A stretch of 24,675 nt of DNA from a bacterium (lineage in GTDB: Bacteria > SM23-81 > DAOVCL01). The notes under the pieces were generated by a model, which worked only from the letters and a program-made list of their open reading frames with translations, searched no databases and was not told the origin of the DNA. Made by a program: the position numbers and the translations under genes. This document shows positions 2,654-24,609 of this stretch, in pieces. The stretch is taken from assembly GCA_029932675.1 (NCBI GenBank), contig JAOZPP010000042.1:1-24675 (forward strand). Direction: 5' to 3'. Each line of letters starts with the position of its first letter. Within the stretch, counting starts at the first letter, position 1.

Positions 2654-3113
2654 TTTTTATTTTGTAAATTAGTGACGAATTCGTTATTCAGAAGGGGCTT
2701 CCGGTAGGGAGAGATCTCCAAGCCTGTCTTTCTCTTTCAGACTTCTCCCCTACTTCAGTATGGATCAAAACCTTTGGGCCTCTGCTGGGGGCTTCGGCGG
2801 CCCTTGTTTGGTCACCGCTTAGTTTATTTATCTCCCGGCGAGCTCGCACCACAAGTGTGTTAAGCTCAAAGAAGAACTTTTGAACAGAATTGTTTAGGAA
2901 GATACAAAGAACTCACAAATCCTGTTCGCCCAATCCATCCATAAATTTGACATCAATGTGATCCATTGCGAGGCCCCAATTTATCTGAGCCTCCAAAGCA
3001 TCTCAACTGAATATGTTATATAATTTTGGGTGAATTGGCGGTACGGAACAAAAACTTCCTAAATCCACTCAGAAAGATTCCTCCTAATGGTTAACTTTAC
3101 CAGAAGGGGAAGG
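2654..3113. other. Intergenic region of about 460 bases, no intact gene
   Basis: No tRNA or complete ORF with start and ribosome site was found here. One frame, 2668-2883, stays open for 71 codons without ATG, GTG or TTG near its beginning. It reads SVWIKTFGPLLGASAALVW followed by RRAR, like the N-terminal membrane segment of a small protein, so it may be gene debris. Near the right end TATAAT (3019-3024) or TGTTATATA is a plausible -10 for the gene that follows, though without a convincing -35. A TTGACA at 2947-2952 has no matching -10 at normal spacing. Confidence 0.5.
3014..3024 (+). promoter_or_regulatory. Possible promoter -10 region for the beta-helix protein gene
   Basis: An extended -10-like TG-T-TATATA overlaps TATAAT at 3019-3024. 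The -35 position at 17-base spacing reads AAGCAT, which is poor, so this call rests on the -10 alone. It lies about 90 bases before the probable start. Confidence 0.3.
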
Positions 3114-5159
3114 ATGAAGCTGAACCAAATTGGGACAATTGTTTCCCTCATTGTTGCCCTCTCTCAGGGCACCCTAGCCCAAACCGAGGTGGGAGGAGAG
3201 ATACCATCAGATACCACTTGGTCTCTCACTGGTAGCCCCTATCTGGCGGTAGAATCGGTGCGAGTACTCGAAGGGGTAACTCTATCTATAGAGCCAGGGG
3301 TGATAGTGAAATTCGATTCCTCCTGTTCTCTTCGAGTCGGTGGCACTCTGATAGCCAAGGGCACAGCTTCAGATTCCATTGTCTTCACCTCAAACACTAC
3401 CCCCCCTCAGCCTGGGGAGTGGGGGGGTATATGGTTGGATAGCACAAGCGTTGATGCCACCTTTGATTCGTTAGATAATTATTTAGCAGGGACTATCATC
3501 GAACATTGTCGGGTGGAATATGGTAAAGAAGGTATCCGCTGTGATCGGTCCTCTCCCTTCATCCATCTAAACCTCATAACTGCCAATTCCATCTCTGGCA
3601 TCTCCTGCTATGGCTCATCCCCCAGGATTGTGGGAAATAGAATAGAGGGAAATGGAAGTCCCCTCAAAGACTACGGTGGCGGTATCCTCTGTGCCAGCTC
3701 ATCCCCTTTGATCCTGGAGAACCTTATCTGCGGCAACTCTGCTCAAAATGGAGGGGGGATCTCCTCCTATGGGAAATCGTCCCCCCATATCTTAAATAAT
3801 CTAATTGAGGAAAATTGGGCCTTGAGGGGAGGGGGAGTCTGTTGTCTCTTCTATCCTGTGGCTTCAGTCCTGCTCAGTAGTAATGAGATTAGGGGGAACA
3901 CTGCCGCTGATTTTGGTGGGGGAATCTACACCTCCGGTTCAATGGCTTGGGATATCAATGGGAACAAGATCATTGGAAACACAGCTACCAATGGGGGAGG
4001 TATCTATTGTGCAAGTTCATCCCGCCTGATGAATATCTCTCACAATACCATTGGCTACAATTTGGCCTCCCAGAACGGCGGCGGCATCTACTGCAGCTCT
4101 TCGGCCTTAACCATATCGGATAACTCCATCATTCATAACTCCGCCTCTTCCTCCGGTGGAGGCATATATACGTCTGGCATATCAGTCTATCACTTCCCCC
4201 TCAGCATCATTCAAAACAATATAACCGCTAATTATGCAGCTATCTGTGGAGGGATCTACTCCGCTGACTCCACCTACCTCGTAATGCACTATAACAATCT
4301 GGTTAACACCACCGGGTTCGAGGTCCATCTCAATGGGGCAGGGGAGAACGTTGAGGCAGACAGCAACTGGTGGGGAACAACAAATTTGGATTCCATTGAG
4401 GGGAGGATCTATGACTCCCAGGATGACACAAACTTGGCAGATGTCCACTTCCTCCCCTTCCTCACCCTTCCTGCAATTGGCAACCCCTTATCGGTACATT
4501 CCCTAAGGTTAAAATCTGATAGCACCTATTCCCAGGATTTGACCACCAACCTCTGGATCGGCGCGAAGATGTGGATCCAACTTGAAGGTCAAGATAGTGA
4601 CTCCTTGGCCAGGGATCAAACCACCGTTAGTTTGCGAGGTAACTTTACCGATACGGTAGGCATTCAGGTGGTGCTCACTGAGACGGACTCCGTATCGGGC
4701 GTTTTTCGGGGGTGCGCTAAGGTAGACTCAATGAGCATAGAAGGGGTTTCCATCGCTGCAGTATTGGGAGAATCACTTACGGTAATCTCCAACCTCGATT
4801 CCACCAAATCTGCTAAGGTTCTCGTGGGGGAAGAGGGGGTAGCTGAAGCCAACAGACCTTTGACTCCCAAGGAATTTGCCTTATTCCAGAACTATCCCAA
4901 CCCCTTTAATGCCACCACTCAGATCCGCTACCATCTCCCAGCTATCAGTGCTCAGCAACCAGTGGTCAGCTTGAAGATCTACAATATCGCCGGACAGGAG
5001 GTGGGAACATTGGTGGAGGAGAAGCAATCTCCTGGCTTCTACTCAGTTCTTTGGGAAGGAAGGGATAAAAGGGCCCAGGAAGTGGCCAGTGGTGTCTACT
5101 TCTGTAGGCTCTCCGTGGGGAACCTTCATCTGGTAAGGAAGATGGTCATATTGAGATGA
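3114..5159 (+). CDS. Secreted right-handed beta-helix protein with type IX-like C-terminal sorting domain
   Basis: About 681 residues if it starts at the ATG at 3114, which has AAGGGGAAGG directly before it. An in-frame ATG at 3087 has no ribosome site. The N-terminus MKLNQIGTIVSLIVALSQG-TLAQ is a clear signal peptide. The next part (GVTLSIEPGVIVKF...GGTLIAKGTASDSIVFTSN) is the usual cap of parallel beta-helix proteins. About ten PbH1-type turns follow to around residue 430, marked by repeating N-x-I-x-x-N and GGGI steps. The last 85 or so residues (FALFQNYPNPFNATTQIRY..., GQEVGTLV, GVYFCRL, RKMVILR) form the tail recognised by type IX secretion in Bacteroidetes-like bacteria. A role in surface polysaccharide binding or cleavage is typical of the fold, but no catalytic residues could be assigned. 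It is transcribed alone, convergent with the minus-strand row. Confidence 0.88.
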   Translation: MKLNQIGTIVSLIVALSQGTLAQTEVGGEIPSDTTWSLTGSPYLAVESVRVLEGVTLSIEPGVIVKFDSSCSLRVGGTLIAKGTASDSIVFTSNTTPPQPGEWGGIWLDSTSVDATFDSLDNYLAGTIIEHCRVEYGKEGIRCDRSSPFIHLNLITANSISGISCYGSSPRIVGNRIEGNGSPLKDYGGGILCASSSPLILENLICGNSAQNGGGISSYGKSSPHILNNLIEENWALRGGGVCCLFYPVASVLLSSNEIRGNTAADFGGGIYTSGSMAWDINGNKIIGNTATNGGGIYCASSSRLMNISHNTIGYNLASQNGGGIYCSSSALTISDNSIIHNSASSSGGGIYTSGISVYHFPLSIIQNNITANYAAICGGIYSADSTYLVMHYNNLVNTTGFEVHLNGAGENVEADSNWWGTTNLDSIEGRIYDSQDDTNLADVHFLPFLTLPAIGNPLSVHSLRLKSDSTYSQDLTTNLWIGAKMWIQLEGQDSDSLARDQTTVSLRGNFTDTVGIQVVLTETDSVSGVFRGCAKVDSMSIEGVSIAAVLGESLTVISNLDSTKSAKVLVGEEGVAEANRPLTPKEFALFQNYPNPFNATTQIRYHLPAISAQQPVVSLKIYNIAGQEVGTLVEEKQSPGFYSVLWEGRDKRAQEVASGVYFCRLSVGNLHLVRKMVILR

Positions 5160-15710: not shown

Positions 15711-15853
15711 TTCTGTCACCAAAGGAGGTGAGGCTACGGGAAAATAGTTTCTTTTGGCTATTCAGCTAACTGAGCCTATGATCCCCTTTTTTACCATAGG
15801 GATTGGAGGTTAGTTAGCCTTTGCTTCAAAACCTTTTTAGGAGGGAGGTAAAG
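15711..15853 (+). promoter_or_regulatory. Long 5' leader with competing hairpins, possible regulatory RNA
   Basis: Several pairings are possible. CACC/GGTG forms 15717-15730. AGGCT/AGCCT (15731-15735 with 15773-15777) encloses a CAG/CTG hairpin. CCTATG (15775-15780) pairs with CATAGG (15795-15800) around a T6 run. GCTAACT (15765-15771) can instead pair with AGTTAGC (15812-15818), excluding the earlier fold. Mutually exclusive stems ahead of the AGGAGGGAGG ribosome site are what a switch would look like. I cannot assign it to a known riboswitch class; GGCTACGGG is only faintly reminiscent of c-di-GMP-I RNAs. Confidence 0.3.
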
Positions 15854-17902
15854 GTGAAGAGGATTAGTTTGCTGACTCTTATTGCAGTAATAGCTGTGGG
15901 AGTTTTTACCTATGCTATTGCCGCCGACCATCTACTGATCACCGAGTTCTGTGTTACACCAACCAATGGTGAGTTTGTAGAGATATATAACCCAACGGGA
16001 AGCACAGTTGACCTTACCCACTACTATTTGACTGATGACTCCTATAAGGGCAACAATGATTATATTTATGTGGTTAATGGGGCTACTAATGTATATAGCG
16101 CTGATTTCCTTGTTCAGTTTCCCAGCGGAGCCTCCATCGGTCCGGGAGAATACCAGACGATATCCATCCAGGGTGGAGACGACTTTTACGGCCAATATTC
16201 CGTTTATCCCACTTATGAGCTCAAGTCACAGAACGCCTCTGTCCCCGATATGATTCCCATTGATGTGAGCAGCGGGCCCACCCTTTCTAACTCTGGTGAG
16301 ATGATTATGTTATTCTACTGGGATGGGAGCAGCGATTTAGTGAAGGATGTTGATTATGTTATCTGGGGCGATAAAACGGAATATGTGGATAAAACGGGGG
16401 TCTCAATTGACGGTCCCGACCCAGATTCTGACCCCAGCACCTATTCTGCTGATACTGACTCATTAACTCAAACCACGGTAGACCCTGATGGCGGAGGAGG
16501 CCAACCACATAGTTATGGGAAGACGGCCCAACGATCCGGGATTACTGAGGCTACTGAGACCCTTACAGGGGGGAACGGTATCACTGGTAATGACGAGACC
16601 AGTGAGGATATGTCTGTCAGCGGTGGTTCATGGACGGTTGACGCCACTGCATCGCCGGGACAGGGCTACGGGGTTCCAGAAATAGATGCGGTGGAATGGA
16701 GCCCTTATGTACCTACGGTGACCGAGCCTGTCGTGGTTAAGGCAGTGGTAACAGATCCGGCGAAGAGCCTTGACTCTGTGCTAGTAATATATACTATCGA
16801 TGGGGAGGATACAACAAGCTTACAGATGTCCTTAGCTACTGGAGACACCTTTCAAGCGACAATCCCTCAACAGGCCAATGGAAAGCTTGTCGAATTCCGC
16901 GTAAAGGCCTGGGACAACGATGGGAACAGCTCGGTTTATCCCTATAAGAGTGGTTACTTCTCTGGCACGGTAAGTATCTCCAGGATAAGGGAAAATGATA
17001 CCAACGGGGTAAACATCTACAAATATTACGGAGCGAGGGTAACCGGGGTGGCTACTTTGGAGACCGGGATTCTTAGGGAACAAGGCAATGGCGTTGACTT
17101 CTATATCCAGGATGCAACTGGGGGCATTAATGTCTTCGACTACTCTGACGCCTCCTCAGTGGCTCGCGGTGACTCGCTAATAGTGGCTGGACGGATCTAC
17201 CAGTATAATGGAAACCTCGAGATAACCAAAGAGGAAAGCGTTCCCTTCATTACCAACCTTGGTCCAGGGACGCTACCCAATCCCACTATTATGACCTGTG
17301 CTGATTGGGGAGAAGACTACGAAGGGCTGCTTGTTGCTGTCCCCTATGTATCCAATGCAGGCACAGGTGACCCTTGGCCTGGTCTGGACACTTCCGCTGA
17401 CATTGCTATCTTTGACACCGCCCTTGTTGACACAGTATACATAAGGATAGACAATGGTACCAATATCGACGGCTGGCCGGAACCAACCTGGCCAAAGGAT
17501 GTGGTTGGTATCTTCTCCCAATACGATATGAGCCTACCATACACTTGGTACTACCAACTCCTCCCTCGGGATACTGCTGATTTCCTCCCCGCTGGGAGTG
17601 TAGGGATTGTGCAGCCCATCGCTCAAAGCTCCTTGCCTGAGCTATTCTCCCTTTCTCAGAACTATCCCAATCCCTTCAACCCGACGACCCAGATCAGCTT
17701 CTCTTTACCTACCAAGGGGCTGGTGAGGTTATCGATCTACAACATCGTCGGCCAAGAAGTGGCCGAACTGGTGAATAAGGAATTGGATACCGGAAGTTAT
17801 CAGGTGAGTTGGGATGCCAGATCTTTCTCCAGCGGGGTCTACTTCTACAAGATAGAGGCAGGAGACTACCAGATGACTAAAAAGATGGTTCTGCTCAAGT
17901 AA
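15854..17902 (+). CDS. Secreted lamin-tail-domain protein with OB-like domain and type IX-like sorting tail
   Basis: About 682 residues from a GTG at 15854, which has AGGAGGGAGG before it. The in-frame TTG at 15821 lacks a ribosome site and would bury the signal peptide. The signal peptide is KRISLLTLIAVIAVGVFTYAIA. The next part (LLITEFCVTPTNGEFVEIYN...) is a lamin-tail domain (about 25-190). A beta-sandwich region follows at about 260-370 (VLVIYTIDGEDTTSLQM), then an OB-fold-like segment at about 375-590 (GARVTGVATLETGIL, FYIQDATGGINVFD, GDSLIVAGRIYQYNGNLEI). The final 85 residues (FSLSQNYPNPFNPTTQISFSLP, GVYFYKIEAG, KKMVLLK) form the sorting tail. It is presumably exported to the surface; a role in binding or surface structure is inference. 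It is related to the gene at 18346. Confidence 0.88.
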   Translation: MKRISLLTLIAVIAVGVFTYAIAADHLLITEFCVTPTNGEFVEIYNPTGSTVDLTHYYLTDDSYKGNNDYIYVVNGATNVYSADFLVQFPSGASIGPGEYQTISIQGGDDFYGQYSVYPTYELKSQNASVPDMIPIDVSSGPTLSNSGEMIMLFYWDGSSDLVKDVDYVIWGDKTEYVDKTGVSIDGPDPDSDPSTYSADTDSLTQTTVDPDGGGGQPHSYGKTAQRSGITEATETLTGGNGITGNDETSEDMSVSGGSWTVDATASPGQGYGVPEIDAVEWSPYVPTVTEPVVVKAVVTDPAKSLDSVLVIYTIDGEDTTSLQMSLATGDTFQATIPQQANGKLVEFRVKAWDNDGNSSVYPYKSGYFSGTVSISRIRENDTNGVNIYKYYGARVTGVATLETGILREQGNGVDFYIQDATGGINVFDYSDASSVARGDSLIVAGRIYQYNGNLEITKEESVPFITNLGPGTLPNPTIMTCADWGEDYEGLLVAVPYVSNAGTGDPWPGLDTSADIAIFDTALVDTVYIRIDNGTNIDGWPEPTWPKDVVGIFSQYDMSLPYTWYYQLLPRDTADFLPAGSVGIVQPIAQSSLPELFSLSQNYPNPFNPTTQISFSLPTKGLVRLSIYNIVGQEVAELVNKELDTGSYQVSWDARSFSSGVYFYKIEAGDYQMTKKMVLLK

Positions 17903-18345: not shown

Positions 18346-21300
18346 ATGAAAAAGCTTTATATCTGCTCAATACTTTGCTTAATTATTTTAGGTATAGCTA
18401 GCTATTGCCTGGCAGCAAATCCTGGGGATGTTGTGATAAATGAGGTAATGTATGATTCAAAAAGCTCGACGGATGAAGAGTGGGTAGAACTACACAATAC
18501 CACTGATTCTACTATTACACTTTCTGGTTGGGTGTTAATAGATGACAGTGTATATCCCTGTGATGGTGGTGAAGGGGAACTAATGATCCCTGGTGGAACT
18601 ACAATTGCGGCCGGAGGATATTTAGTCATTAGCAAAGCTGCTATTGATGAGATAACAGGTGAAGTGGTTTGTACACAAACTACCGGAAGTTTTGGCCTTG
18701 CCAATAGTGGAGATAACATCGCCCTTTACACCGCAGCTTCAGGGGGAACCCTTATAGATGGTTCCCTTACGGTAAAGTATCCTGATGATGCTCCAAGCAA
18801 TGCCGGTTACTCCATTGAGAAGATCGATGAATCATCCGGTTGGAGCGGTTCGACAGTCGAGTGGGATGCTTCCGTTAATGATTATGGAGGGAGTGAGCAT
18901 GTGAGGTGTACTCCAGGGACTACTAACAGTGTAAGCGGTGGCGACACCACTCCGCCTATGGTGGACGTGGCTTTTGCCACTGGATCCGTTGGTATTGACG
19001 TGCATTTCAGTGAGGCCGTGGATGAAACCTCCTCTGAGAATGCTGCCCATTACACCTTGACGAGTGGGCTGGGGGTTACTAATGCCTCCCGGGATGGTTC
19101 CGATAGCAGCATTGTCCATCTGACCACAGCAAGCCAAACCGATGGGCTTGCCGATACCCTAATCGTATCAGGGGTGGCTGATACCGCTGGAAATAATATG
19201 ACCACCCCGGATTCAGTTGCCTTTAGGCAAGGCATCACCCCTATCTCCTCGGTCCAGGACACATCCCCCAATGGGGATACATCCCTCTTAGAGGGGGAGA
19301 TGGTGACCATATCCGGCTTGGTTACGGCTTCCTTCTCCAGTTACCATTTCTATTTCCTGGAAAATTCACCGGGCGGCCCCTGGAGCGGCATCCTCATCTA
19401 TGATTCTGACCATTCACCTACAGTGGGGGATAGCCTCACCCTGGCTGGTGTGGTTGAAGAGTATTTCTACTCCTGCGGGGGGCGGGGGAAGACCGAGATA
19501 ACCCCAGTGGTACACTACAACCTGCAGAGCACCGGGAATAGCCTTCCTGATCCCGCATTGGTGAGCACCGGGGAGGTAAGCAATAGCTCTTCCACAGCAG
19601 AGATGTATGAGAGCGTGTTGATAAAGTTGACAGGTGTGCAGGTGGTGGATACATTCGATGTCTACAATGAGTGGAAGGTGGCCAATGCCGGTGAAGACTC
19701 CCTCGTTGTAGGCCACCATAGCAACTACAGCTATGTTCCTTCCCTTGGCGATAACCTTAACATCACCGGGCCTCTGAACTACGCCCACTGCAACTATAAG
19801 ATCGATCCGCGGGACGGCTCAGATATCGTCCTGATTACAGACCAACCCCCTCAGATCGCCAATGTATTCCAGCTTCCTACCTATCCAAGCAGCAGCGATA
19901 CGGTAGTGATCTCGGCTAAGGTTACCGATACGGAAGGAGGAAAAAGCATCATTTCTGTTTACCTTCTCTATTCCATAGATTCTGCCCCCTATGACAGCAC
20001 AGCGATGCTGGACGATGGGGTCCCTCCTGATCAGACCGTAGGTGACTCCATCTACACAGCCCAGATTTTACCTCAGACCGATGGCACCTTAGTCGACTAC
20101 TACCTGAGGGCTAAGGATAATATTGGGCAAGTGACTACCAGCCCTTCTAACGCCCCGACAACAACCTACTCCTACACTGTGGGTGAACTCCCTCCTACTG
20201 TCGTCATAAATGAGCTCTATTACGATTCCCCCGGCACAGATGTGCACACTTTTACCGAGCTTAAAGGTGAACCAGGGACGAGTTTAGATGGATATAATCT
20301 GGTAGGGGTAAATGGAGCTGATGGCTCAGCATATCGCACGGTCTCCCTCTCCGGGCACAGTATCCCATCTGATGGCTATTTTGTGATTGCTCAAGATGAT
20401 GGGGTGGAAAATTATGATATGATCACGCCCGATGTGGACTGGCAGAACGGGCCGGACAATGTCCTCCTCACCGATGCCTCTGGGGATACGGTGGATGCCG
20501 TAGGCTATGGGCCAATCGATACATCAAGTTGGTTCTTCGTCGGTGAGGTGACCCCCGCACCTGATGTTGCTTCGGGCAGTAGTCTGGGACGGTATCCGGA
20601 CGGAAGTGATACCGATACCAATTGGGTTGATTTTGCCATATTTGCCTCGCCTACCCCCGGTGAGGCCAATGAGTATCCTTCGCCTTTAGCTCTGTCTATC
20701 CATCAAATCCAGTATACCACCGACCCCTCTGGCGATTCGCCATATAAGGACTCCATTGTGGTAACCAGTGGGATAGTTACAGCAGGATCGGGGGTTTTTA
20801 ACAGTGGGGGGTTTTACCTCCAGGACGGCCAAGGGGCCTGGAATGGGATACTGATCTACGACACCGACGACAGTGTTGCCCAAGGCGATAGCGTCACTGT
20901 AACCGGGAAGGTTAATGAGTACCTCGGCAAGACGGAAATTGGAAATGTCAACCAATTAGTGGTACACAGTTCAGGCAACACCGTGCCTGATCCGGTGTTG
21001 ACCACTCCGGGTCAGGTGGATACCTCCGAGGCCTATGAGGGTGTTCTGATAAAAGTTGCGGGCGTTGCTGTGGCAGATACTATGGATGAATATGGCGAAT
21101 GGAAGATAACGGGAGCGGTATCCGATACCTGCATTGTGGACGATGATGGCCAATACACCTATGAACCTCGCGTAGGTGATACCCTGGACATAACCGGCAT
21201 TGTGAACTACTCATTCGGGCATTTTAAGATCGAACCCCGCTCTGATGCCGATATCATCCCTGGCGGTGTAGGGGTGAGATTCAGCCATCAATCAGTAGCT

Positions 21301-21600
21301 CCCGATGCCTTCTTCCTCTTCCAGAACTACCCCAATCCATTTAACCCCACTACCCTCATATGCTACACCATCCCAGCGCTCAGCAGCCACCAATCAGCCG
21401 TCAGCTTAAAGGTTTACAATATCCAGGGGCAGTTGGTGCGCACTTTAGTTGACGAGGAGCAAACCCCTGGCTACTACTCTGTGAACTGGGATGGAAGGGA
21501 TTACTTAGGCGAAGAGGTCGCCAGTGGAATATACTTCTACAGGTTAGAGGTAATGGGGGCGAAAGCTGAAATGACGAGGAAGATGGTGCTGCTGAGATAG
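18346..21600 (+). CDS. Large secreted protein with two lamin-tail and two OB-like repeats plus type IX-like sorting tail
   Basis: 1084 residues; the ATG is preceded by GAGGAGATC. Signal peptide MKKLYICSILCLIILGIASY, ending around CLAA. Order: lamin-tail domain (about 25-190; VVINEVMYDSKS, EEWVELHN); Ig/SwmB-like domain (200-297); first OB-like unit (about 300-495; GILIYDSDHSPTVGDSLTLAG); FN3-like domain (500-612); second lamin-tail-like domain (about 615-775; VVINELYYDSPG); second OB-like unit (about 785-975; GILIYDTDDSVAQGDSVTVTG); sorting tail (about 990-1084; FFLFQNYPNPFNPTTLICY..., GIYFYRLEV, RKMVLLR). The two OB-like units share IYD(S/T)D, YESVLIK/YEGVLIK, EWK and YKIDPR/FKIEPR steps, so they are an internal duplication. 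No nuclease or other catalytic motif was found. It is monocistronic and a paralogue of the preceding gene. Confidence 0.88.
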   Translation: MKKLYICSILCLIILGIASYCLAANPGDVVINEVMYDSKSSTDEEWVELHNTTDSTITLSGWVLIDDSVYPCDGGEGELMIPGGTTIAAGGYLVISKAAIDEITGEVVCTQTTGSFGLANSGDNIALYTAASGGTLIDGSLTVKYPDDAPSNAGYSIEKIDESSGWSGSTVEWDASVNDYGGSEHVRCTPGTTNSVSGGDTTPPMVDVAFATGSVGIDVHFSEAVDETSSENAAHYTLTSGLGVTNASRDGSDSSIVHLTTASQTDGLADTLIVSGVADTAGNNMTTPDSVAFRQGITPISSVQDTSPNGDTSLLEGEMVTISGLVTASFSSYHFYFLENSPGGPWSGILIYDSDHSPTVGDSLTLAGVVEEYFYSCGGRGKTEITPVVHYNLQSTGNSLPDPALVSTGEVSNSSSTAEMYESVLIKLTGVQVVDTFDVYNEWKVANAGEDSLVVGHHSNYSYVPSLGDNLNITGPLNYAHCNYKIDPRDGSDIVLITDQPPQIANVFQLPTYPSSSDTVVISAKVTDTEGGKSIISVYLLYSIDSAPYDSTAMLDDGVPPDQTVGDSIYTAQILPQTDGTLVDYYLRAKDNIGQVTTSPSNAPTTTYSYTVGELPPTVVINELYYDSPGTDVHTFTELKGEPGTSLDGYNLVGVNGADGSAYRTVSLSGHSIPSDGYFVIAQDDGVENYDMITPDVDWQNGPDNVLLTDASGDTVDAVGYGPIDTSSWFFVGEVTPAPDVASGSSLGRYPDGSDTDTNWVDFAIFASPTPGEANEYPSPLALSIHQIQYTTDPSGDSPYKDSIVVTSGIVTAGSGVFNSGGFYLQDGQGAWNGILIYDTDDSVAQGDSVTVTGKVNEYLGKTEIGNVNQLVVHSSGNTVPDPVLTTPGQVDTSEAYEGVLIKVAGVAVADTMDEYGEWKITGAVSDTCIVDDDGQYTYEPRVGDTLDITGIVNYSFGHFKIEPRSDADIIPGGVGVRFSHQSVAPDAFFLFQNYPNPFNPTTLICYTIPALSSHQSAVSLKVYNIQGQLVRTLVDEEQTPGYYSVNWDGRDYLGEEVASGIYFYRLEVMGAKAEMTRKMVLLR

Positions 21601-21701: not shown

Positions 21702-22937
21702 TCAATTCAGCCCTCTGCAAAATTGGGGATTCCCCCCTTCTGCCGGTATTCTCCCTACCTCTTCCAGCTTTTCCAAAACCGCGGAGGGCTGGAGGGCATA
21801 TTTGAAGAAGATTACCGGTCCGGAGAAACCATCAGGGGAGCAGTTCAAGGTCTGGTTCACGGCCACGATGAGGTCTGCCCTTCCGGCTGTTCGAAGCTTC
21901 TCCAGTTTCTTTTCCAGATACTCCGGTGTCCAGAAACCCACTATCTCCAGGGAGGCCTTCCGCCCATCCTGATGGGTGAAGGTGAAATCCGGGATGAACA
22001 CCTTTCCCCCCAGATCAATTACCTCCCCCTCCCTCTTTAGCATCCATTGGGTGGATATCTTTTGGAACCTCCGGGCGAAAGTCTCTTCCAGTTTGGAGTC
22101 GAATAACCTCTCTGGATGGTAGTGGGAGTGGAGGCCACACTCCTGATCCAAGGAGAAGACCTTTAACCCGGCTCTGGTGGAGATATCGGCCCACATCCTC
22201 CACCGAGAGGCCAAGAGGAGGCCGGGGAGGAAACAGGCCATATTTACCCCATACTTCTGGGTGTGCCGCAGGAGGGATGCAGGGCCGGTGAGAGTGATGA
22301 AGTAACCACCTTTGGGGTTCCTTTCCATAAGGTAGATGAGCCTAGCCAGCTTGATATATCTGAACACCGATTTGTAATCAGAAAAGAGCTCAACCCTCAT
22401 CCTTAGAGCTCGATAGAGTATCCCCTGGGCCAGGGCGAGGTTATACCTGCGGAGAAGTTCCTCTGGGGTGACTTTCTCCATATCCACTAAGATGTGGTTT
22501 TCGGGGAGGTCGCCATAAAGGTCATCCTCCAATTCCTGGGTTGCTACGCCCAGGTCTTCAGCTATGGGCTCCAACACCTCCTCCCTTCTTGTCTGGTAGA
22601 GAAGGTCGGGCTGGGTAACGATGGGATATGCCTTGGCTGCTTTGCTGAAAACCTTCTCCCGTATTTGGGGATAGTTCCATTGGTGTGGCGGCGAGAAGGT
22701 AGCTTTCTCCTCCAGAAGCTTGGAGAGTCCCCGAAATACCCTGTATTCCGTGCTGGTCGATTCATAATCCTCCAGCCTTCTTCTTATCTCTCCCTTGGTA
22801 AGGCCAAAGGAACTTCTGTAGATCCGGATGAGATCCTCACCCACCCTCAGATACCTTGAGGATTCCCTTCTGGTGATGTAAGCCGGAACTACCTCTCCAT
22901 CGGTGACTTTATATCGGATAAGGTCAGAGGTGAGCAC
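21702..22937 (-). CDS. Bax1/DUF790 endonuclease, partner of XPB helicase
   Basis: 411 residues, starting at a GTG with GGAGGGG nine bases before it, inside the end of the helicase gene (14-base overlap). The N-terminus MLTSDLIRYKVTDGEVVPAY and the C-terminal nuclease core match the DUF790 family, known in archaea as Bax1, which binds XPB and cuts the DNA bubble it opens. PD-(D/E)XK-like residues are D280/E284-E285 (FDSKLEETFARRF), P316-D317 (FIPDFTF) and E331 (LEIVGFWTPEYLEKK), followed by ADLIVAVNQTLN. The middle (about 90-260) is helical. Identification is by remembered family pattern plus the diagnostic neighbour. It would act in the cytoplasm on damaged DNA. Confidence 0.87.
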   Translation of the reverse strand: MLTSDLIRYKVTDGEVVPAYITRRESSRYLRVGEDLIRIYRSSFGLTKGEIRRRLEDYESTSTEYRVFRGLSKLLEEKATFSPPHQWNYPQIREKVFSKAAKAYPIVTQPDLLYQTRREEVLEPIAEDLGVATQELEDDLYGDLPENHILVDMEKVTPEELLRRYNLALAQGILYRALRMRVELFSDYKSVFRYIKLARLIYLMERNPKGGYFITLTGPASLLRHTQKYGVNMACFLPGLLLASRWRMWADISTRAGLKVFSLDQECGLHSHYHPERLFDSKLEETFARRFQKISTQWMLKREGEVIDLGGKVFIPDFTFTHQDGRKASLEIVGFWTPEYLEKKLEKLRTAGRADLIVAVNQTLNCSPDGFSGPVIFFKYALQPSAVLEKLEEVGRIPAEGGNPQFCRGLN

Positions 22938-24285
22938 CCTTTCCCCTCCGTTGATAAGAGATCTGAGTCTCCTTTGTCCCCCTAACTACCACCTCATAGA
23001 GAAGGGCCTTCTTACCAGAGCTCTTCCTCAGTATCCTGCCCAGCCTTTGGAGATGTTCTCTGGGTGCCGCGCTCCCGCTGAGGATGACGGCAACCTTGGC
23101 CTCGGGGACATCTATCCCCTCGTTTAATACCTTTGAGGTGCAGATAATGGGGTAGCTCCCCCTCCGGAAATTGTCTAAGATGGCCTTCCTTTCCTTGGTC
23201 TTCGTTTGGTGAGTTATGCAGGGGATAAGAAATGTGCGGGAGATGTGGTAGACGAACTCGTTATCCTCGGTGAAGATGATCATCCTCTCCCGGTGGTGTT
23301 GTTTGATCAGGGCTTCCAAGATCTCCAATTTCCTCTGGGCATGGTAGATTATCTGGTGAACCCTTCTTCTGGCTAAGAGGGCCGTTCTCGCCTGACTGCT
23401 ATAGGAGCTTTTCCTGATAAAATCCTCCCATCTCCCACCCCAATACCTGACCTTCTTCTCCCGCACATAGCCGGTATACTCCCGTAGACTCCTCTCATAC
23501 TCCTCTCTCTCTGGGGAGAGCAAGCCTACCCTCAGCCTGATGATCTCATAATCGGAGAGGTGTTCCCCCTTCAGATCGGCAACCCTCTTCTGGTAGACCA
23601 CCCTTCCCACCAACTCCCCCAATCGGCGATGGAGCTCATCCGACCTACGGTAGGTAGCGGTGAGGCCCAACCTATAAGGGGCTACGGACATCTGAGGGAT
23701 ATGGGAATACTTCGGGGAGGGGAGATGGTGTACCTCGTCGAAGACGAGAAGGGCAAACCTATCCCCATAACGGTCTATATAGATATAGCCACTGTCGTAG
23801 GTAGCCACAGTAAGCCTCTCTATCTGGTGGTAGCCCCCTCCCAAGATGCCCACCTCTACCCCGAAGCTATCCTTAAGGAGGCCATACCACTGGTTCATCA
23901 GGTCTATGGTGGGGAGGACCACCAGGGTGGACTTGTCCAATAGGGCTATGGCCTTTAGGGCCAGGTAACTCTTTCCAGCTCCGGTGGGCAGAACGACCGT
24001 CCCTTGGTAGCCCGCCTTCTCCCAGGCCTGGATAGCCTCCCTTTGGTAGGGTCTGAGGACCAATCCGGAGCGGAGCTTAAGGCCAAGCCGGGGGAATTCA
24101 GGGACCCTATTGTCAATTAATATCCCCTGGAGGCGGAAGAAATCCACCGCTTCCTGATAATGGAGGGCCATTGCCCTCCACTTTCTCTCCCTCCTGTCCC
24201 AGAGAAAGAAGGGGGGAAGCTTCACCCTTCCTGGGTTCACCAAAACTATGGTTCCTGCTTCGTATTTTAAAGTAGGAAGAGCCAT
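22924..24285 (-). CDS. XPB/Rad25-type superfamily 2 DNA helicase
   Basis: 453 residues. The N-terminal damage-recognition-like region (1-75) precedes helicase domain 1: LRPYQREAI (77-85), Walker A PTGAGKS (100-106), Walker B DEVHH (183-187) and GLTAT (207-211). Domain 2 has MIIFTEDNEF, TSKVLNEGIDVPEA (motif V) and LQRLGRILRKSSG (motif VI). The position of the XPB RED motif after GLTATYR reads R-S-D (214-216), a conservative variant. The following helical section (about 270-310) would be the thumb. The gene overlaps the Bax1 nuclease gene, as in archaea, supporting a joint excision-repair role. No ribosome site precedes the ATG; a promoter lies so close that the mRNA may be leaderless. Confidence 0.92.
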   Translation of the reverse strand: MALPTLKYEAGTIVLVNPGRVKLPPFFLWDRRERKWRAMALHYQEAVDFFRLQGILIDNRVPEFPRLGLKLRSGLVLRPYQREAIQAWEKAGYQGTVVLPTGAGKSYLALKAIALLDKSTLVVLPTIDLMNQWYGLLKDSFGVEVGILGGGYHQIERLTVATYDSGYIYIDRYGDRFALLVFDEVHHLPSPKYSHIPQMSVAPYRLGLTATYRRSDELHRRLGELVGRVVYQKRVADLKGEHLSDYEIIRLRVGLLSPEREEYERSLREYTGYVREKKVRYWGGRWEDFIRKSSYSSQARTALLARRRVHQIIYHAQRKLEILEALIKQHHRERMIIFTEDNEFVYHISRTFLIPCITHQTKTKERKAILDNFRRGSYPIICTSKVLNEGIDVPEAKVAVILSGSAAPREHLQRLGRILRKSSGKKALLYEVVVRGTKETQISYQRRGKGAHL

Positions 24286-24294
24286 TGCAGGTTT

Positions 24295-24323
24295 ATTTTA
24301 ACAGTAGTTGGAAGGAAAATCAA
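24295..24323 (-). promoter_or_regulatory. Promoter for the XPB-Bax1 pair, probably leaderless
   Basis: On the minus strand TTGATT (24323-24318) and TAAAAT (24300-24295) are 17 bases apart. A start about seven bases after the -10 falls near 24288, three bases before the helicase ATG (24285). No Shine-Dalgarno fits between them, consistent with a leaderless mRNA. Confidence 0.6.
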
Positions 24324-24408: not shown

Positions 24409-24477
24409 GTAGGGACAAGGTCTTTAGACCTGTCCGCAGGACCGGAGGAGCGGACAGACATAAATGTCTCTCCCTAC
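24409..24477. repeat. Cloverleaf-like inverted-repeat element (69 bases)
   Basis: The ends GTAGGGA (24409-24415) and TCCCTAC (24471-24477) are perfect inverted repeats. Between them lie three further hairpins: AGGTC/GACCT (24418-24431), GTCCGC/GCGGAC (24432-24455, 12-base loop) and AGACA/TGTCT (24456-24469). Such compact multi-hairpin units are typical of dispersed REP/MITE-like repeats in bacterial genomes. Only this copy is present in the window, so the repeat nature is inferred from its shape. Confidence 0.55.
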
Positions 24478-24578: not shown

Positions 24579-24609
24579 AAAAAAGGGGGCAGAACCGGAG
24601 TTCTGCCCC
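24579..24609 (-). terminator. Intrinsic terminator for a gene to the right of the window
   Basis: GGGGCAGAAC (24586-24595) pairs perfectly with GTTCTGCCCC (24600-24609) around a CGGA loop. The A6 run at 24579-24584 becomes T6 after the stem on the minus strand. A leftward gene beyond 24675 probably ends here. On the plus strand the hairpin is not followed by a T run. Confidence 0.85.

Follow-up and report, generated by a model that had tools for sequence, protein, structure and literature searches.

The window analysed here is a contig of 24,675 b, taken in its full length, and it carries near one end two overlapping genes on the minus strand. The upstream gene encodes an XPB-type SF2 helicase of 453 aa (22924..24285, ATG start), assigned from its open reading frame, Pfam domains and structure matches, and the second encodes a Bax1/DUF790 nuclease of 411 aa (21702..22937, GTG start), assigned from its open reading frame, Pfam and fold. 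As the initial annotation had read them, the two frames overlap by 14 nt (22924..22937, minus strand), and both family names hold, since the XPB domains and the full-length DUF790 protein are matched by Pfam and by solved archaeal structures. As contig and window end together, the sequence 5' of XPB can be followed no further than this. Just 5' of XPB lies a sigma70-like promoter match (TTGATT-17-TAAAAT, 24295..24323, minus strand; a consensus match only), and beyond it a predicted terminator-like hairpin with a T run (24586..24609, minus strand) would stop transcription coming from further upstream. From these matches the pair may form its own transcription unit; the counts of promoter- and terminator-like sites in the window are not clearly above chance. 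The same upstream region contains nested short palindromes (24412-24470), the core of which occurs once more in the genome with three mismatches.

Elsewhere in the window, three secreted proteins (3087-5159, 15821-17902 and 18346-21600) end in T9SS type A sorting tails that match TIGR04183 above its cut-off, two of them also containing lamin-tail domains. The type IX-like secretome proposed at the outset thus holds for these three proteins. The closest relative likewise encodes, directly upstream of XPB, a secreted protein whose C-terminal tail resembles these (L008:1608-3329). A minus-strand frame of 133 aa at 2320-2721 is spurious, as it covers the genes for tRNA Gln (2413-2486) and tRNA Glu (2580-2654). 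The gltX of the contig shares 81% identity within the same genus and ~42% within the same phylum, indicating that the contig belongs in its genome.

The helicase consists of four Pfam domains, namely XPB_DRD, ResIII, Helicase_C and ERCC3_RAD25_C, of which the N-terminal damage recognition domain (residues 6-61; 24103..24270, minus strand) matches PF18458 with 45 bits against a cut-off of 26. Its nearest solved relatives are exclusively archaeal, from Archaeoglobus fulgidus (2fwr/6p66_A, E=4e-104) and Sulfurisphaera tokodaii. Alignment revealed that the SF2 motifs are all intact as described initially, including the Walker A motif TGAGKS (residues 101-106; 23968..23985), the Walker B motif DEVHH (residues 183-187; 23725..23739), TAT and QRLGRILR. 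The thumb (ThM) region, known from archaeal structures to touch Bax1 and to act as a wedge in the fork (PMC7293015, PMC7672443), is located at residues ~264-305 (23371..23496) and is present in every aligned XPB of the bacterial branch. An AlphaFold2 model built from an alignment of homologues, with a mean pLDDT of 83.2, superimposes on S. tokodaii XPB bound to Bax1 and forked DNA (6p4f_C) with a TM of 0.82 and 3.5 A over 439 columns, the best TM match among the chains listed.

At the position of the RED motif (residues 214-216; 23638..23646, all these motifs being on the minus strand) the helicase reads R-S-D. This reading was correct in the initial annotation, but it is no distinguishing feature: among 26 sampled archaeal XPBs the position is RED in only 12, RPD in 6 and RDD in 5, S. 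tokodaii itself having RDD, and in the bacterial branch P, A, S, T, L or Q occupies the middle position. R-S-D as a peculiarity of this helicase was accordingly ruled out, the middle residue being variable throughout archaeal and bacterial XPBs. As the R and D are kept while the residue between them varies, R-E-D cannot serve as a strict hallmark of the family.

The assignment of the 411-residue protein to DUF790/Bax1, on which the initial reading had been staked, was upheld by PF05626, which scored 414 bits where 28.8 would suffice, residues 1-391 aligning with all 387 profile positions. As for the helicase, the nearest solved relatives are only archaeal, from Pyrococcus furiosus (8gy8), A. 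fulgidus (6p66_B, E=1.3e-40) and S. tokodaii. Two NCBIfam models, NF053694 and NF053695, scored 223.5 and 215.9 bits, below their cut-off of 500; they represent the proteins of A. fulgidus and Sulfolobus and are not family-defining. The AlphaFold2 model of Bax1, likewise built from an alignment of homologues, has a mean pLDDT of 89.1, is disordered beyond residue 399, and displays the Bax1 fold of an NTD, a Cas2-like CRD and a nuclease domain. Structural comparison with archaeal Bax1 chains gave Z-scores of 23.4-26.7 over 364-372 residues, with 6p4f_B at the top (Z 26.7) and the next chain at only 7.9. Modelled as single proteins, the helicase and the nuclease therefore both match chains of archaeal XPB-Bax1.

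The PD-(D/E)XK-like residues noticed at first could be placed as E284, D317 and E331 together with a migrated lysine, K344, in a nuclease domain spanning residues ~280-380 (21798..22100, minus strand; from alignment and fold). Alignment of 64 Bax1 proteins (29 archaeal and 35 bacterial-branch members) showed D317 (AfD305) in every one of them, and E284, E331 (AfE318) and K344 each in 63. The position given in print as AfE275 (PMC7293015) varies among these sequences, and it is the neighbouring E274 that is conserved. Beyond K344, only 67 residues follow in the window protein and 51-73 in the bacterial branch, compared to 119-201 in 25 of the 29 archaeal proteins. The window protein thus lacks the C-terminal dimerisation domain, as do the other four archaeal rows, in agreement with its reported absence from many archaeal Bax1 (PMC7293015). 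In S. tokodaii Bax1 this domain has been proposed, from a model, to mediate a dimerisation that masks the enzyme's own active sites (PMC7293015). Lacking it, bacterial-branch Bax1 should, by analogy, be a monomer free of silencing by self-dimerisation.

The residues through which A. fulgidus Bax1 contacts XPB are largely conserved. Window D143 (22509..22511, minus strand), which corresponds to AfBax1 D133 in the XPB interface and a proposed N-terminal site, is invariant in all 64 proteins, and AfBax1 Y155 and N156 are kept in 63 and 62, respectively. At the six interface positions that have been mutated in archaeal Bax1, the window protein retains Y141, D143, Y165 and N166 and differs at two, F119 being replaced by L129 and E135 by P145; the F119 position is also leucine in 15 of the 29 archaeal proteins. 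The two substitutions count against a heterodimer. The thumb counts for it, as it is kept throughout the bacterial branch, whereas Mycobacterium tuberculosis XPB, with no known Bax1 partner, reportedly lacks it. On balance, by analogy with the archaeal complexes, we consider that the pair probably forms an XPB-Bax1-family helicase-nuclease heterodimer of a bacterial branch, which would open and cut DNA as in archaea.

A scan of the genome collection found 580 relatives, the closest 80 of which were retained; since these were chosen by likeness to the query, bacterial relatives are over-sampled, and archaeal rows were added as an offset, taken from two solved structures and otherwise from a single phylum, that of one haloarchaeon. 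The labels of these 80 include Gemmatimonadota, KSB1, Calditrichota, Armatimonadota, Poribacteria, Binatota, Latescibacterota, Planctomycetota, Chloroflexota and Cyanobacteriota, and altogether the xpb-bax1 pair was found under about a dozen bacterial phylum labels, although labels of metagenome-assembled genomes were assigned by the submitters and in some cases seem mistaken. For example, the assemblies titled Klebsiella pneumoniae and Actinomycetota (L023, L011) have a Bax1 near Myxococcota/Binatota-like and Calditrichota sequences, and their label or bin looks wrong. The survey of the phylum around the Gemmatimonadota relative covered one genome. DUF790 occurs in one of four genomes searched in the host phylum. 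It is also present on 40 plasmid records from Deinococcus and haloarchaea, and these very records encode XPB as well.

Such a patchy and plasmid-borne distribution might also suit an anti-phage or anti-plasmid helicase-nuclease system in place of a repair function. Restriction genes lie close to two of the plasmid copies (L003 and L005), and the helicase resembles the defence helicase PbeA and the dnd restriction enzyme, the dnd match being far below the curated cut-off. However, 86 neighbouring open reading frames of bacterial and haloarchaeal copies, counted without a control set, gave scattered PADLOC matches and no recurring system, DUF790 itself matches no PADLOC family, and no relative was found in viral contigs or phage records. 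We therefore regard a defence function as unlikely.

An overlap of exactly 14 nt was found in 32 of 47 adjacent homologous pairs, among them that of the window, two from Deinococcus and 21 from haloarchaea. The idea that this overlap is unique to the window was rejected, as it recurs in haloarchaea, Deinococcus and several bacterial phyla; it could derive from common descent, from selection for coupled translation, or from the ease with which a stop arises across Bax1 codons 4-5. In Halobellus salinus (L064:2309-5014), an XPB split over several frames, apparently broken, lies beside an intact Bax1. The genes are apart in Binatota, Poribacteria and many cyanobacteria, which might mean that XPB and Bax1 are both active but work separately, their adjacency being a relic of an old operon structure. 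Yet XPB is retained in all 16 Bax1-bearing genomes searched, linked or unlinked, with 38-61% identity to window XPB, and the contact residues are conserved, so that separate action seems very improbable. Both the retention of XPB in these 16 genomes and the joint presence on all 40 plasmid records count for the heterodimer.

Trees of both proteins against archaeal and bacterial homologues placed the window pair among bacterial neighbours. A branch with full support sets 29 canonical archaeal proteins apart from the rest of the Bax1 tree, and the window protein groups with Gemmatimonadota, BMS3Bbin03, KSB1 and Calditrichota (SH-aLRT 96; 99/90 in another tree). The XPB tree gives the same neighbours with a support of 96 and sets 26 archaeal XPBs apart. 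Both trees are unrooted and so set no direction between the domains. A second haloarchaeal Bax1 of 446-454 aa, often plasmid-borne, falls on the bacterial side of the Bax1 tree, whereas the XPB tree puts the second haloarchaeal group with archaea at a weaker support of 84, so the two trees disagree there. One haloarchaeon (G018) has an archaeal-type and a bacterial-type pair in the same genome (L114, L121). A recent lateral transfer of an archaeal operon into the host, suggested by the description of the family as archaeal in papers and by the single carrier among four genomes of the phylum, is rejected on both trees and is hardly credible, as window XPB and Bax1 group with bacteria outside the archaeal blocks and the GC content of the pair (~0.53) resembles that of the remaining window (0.46-0.55). 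Of the two origins offered in the initial annotation, lateral transfer or an old and little-studied bacterial branch, the old branch is thus favoured over archaeal import, both proteins nesting among bacteria. Exchange of the pair from one bacterium to another, and with haloarchaea, nevertheless seems likely, given the patchy occurrence within the phylum and the plasmid-borne copies elsewhere.

The host genome encodes full-length uvrA, uvrB and uvrC, as found in the search suggested at the outset. It also has a second, double-length UvrA (G000:C104:49510-54675), a single frame of 1761 aa with two UvrA matches, the normal uvrA lying on another contig (C83). Among 20 carriers, UvrB was found above cut-off in 15, as fragments on draft contigs in four, and as weaker helicase matches only in one. 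With UvrABC complete in the host and UvrB in most carriers, XPB-Bax1 accompanies UvrABC and does not replace it; it is an extra system beside that of the host. The complete UvrABC counts against a need for a second excision system. The initial description of archaeal XPB-Bax1 as a bubble-cutting excision-repair unit stands in part. The complex binds and cuts forks and bubbles in vitro (PMC7293015, PMC7672443), but no effect was seen in Sulfolobus islandicus when bax1, xpb1 and xpb2 were deleted, and deletion of xpb in T. kodakarensis had a marginal effect (PMC4471258), and in Halobacterium, which encodes XPB, the repair of UV lesions requires UvrABC (PMC7776575). In view of these absent or marginal damage phenotypes, a repair role is putative even in archaea.

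The pair is thus homologous to its archaeal relatives, with the same domain order and fold and with the active-site residues and most contact residues kept, and its two genes occur together and are linked; by analogy we infer that XPB and Bax1 also contact each other, unwind and cut DNA in the host. XPB would bind a bubble or fork via its damage-recognition domain, R-x-D motif and thumb and, driven by ATP hydrolysis, travel along the DNA. Bax1 would dock with its N-terminal domain onto the thumb and the second helicase domain of XPB, bringing in a PD-(D/E)XK domain that would cut one arm of the opened DNA close to the junction. Most likely, the pair serves here as an accessory to UvrABC that processes DNA which is opened or forked; with less certainty, the heterodimer might remove or trim damaged DNA as an accessory of UvrABC. 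More tentatively, and with the odds somewhat against it, the pair might represent a second helicase-nuclease pathway independent of UvrABC, belonging to a distinct bacterial XPB-Bax1 branch in about a dozen phyla that was handed to haloarchaea, with a Bax1 devoid of the self-inhibiting dimer domain; in that case XPB-Bax1 would not have been invented in archaea and passed from there to bacteria.

Altogether, a real and well-conserved bacterial XPB-Bax1 pair is confirmed. The gene pair itself is already annotated in databases, with DUF790-helicase pairs recorded on plasmids in RefSeq, and cyanobacterial DUF790 and its linkage to a helicase were reported in 2005. The open-access papers searched, with few mentions of DUF790 or COG3372, do not treat it as XPB-Bax1; according to a paper of 2012, bacteria were not known to have any XPB-Bax1-type complex (PMC3353954), and a review of 2026 lists XPB-Bax1 as archaeal (PMC13024598). 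The pair sits in a UvrABC-proficient bacterium, whereas papers on excision repair treat it as archaeal. Since relatives occur in groups with laboratory genetics, such as Deinococcus, relatives of Nostoc/Anabaena and Halobacterium, the cellular role of XPB-Bax1 becomes testable.

Compared to known systems, the window pair most resembles XPB-Bax1 of A. fulgidus (6p66) and S. tokodaii (6p4o, 6p4w, 6p4f) in domain order, catalytic residues, most interface residues and the thumb, and xpb and bax1 overlap in A. fulgidus too (in an A. fulgidus-identical locus, L117). However, the identities are only ~25-28% for Bax1 and 37-42% for XPB, and the window pair differs in its missing C-terminal dimerisation domain and in R-S-D for RED. 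P. furiosus Bax1 (8gy8) is similar in fold (Z 26.0) and, as a 375-aa chain, also has no long C-terminal domain, but it shares 28% identity with window Bax1 and belongs to the archaeal block. M. tuberculosis XPB, compared here through its published description (PMC3353954), is a bacterial XPB helicase as well, but it reportedly has no thumb, differs in its N-terminal domain and is without a known Bax1 partner. The pairs of DUF790 and a DEAD-DEAH helicase on Deinococcus plasmids and in cyanobacteria comprise the same two genes as the window, with the 14-nt overlap in two of the three Deinococcus loci read; their Bax1 proteins share 33-39% identity with that of the window, and many of the cyanobacterial pairs are separated.
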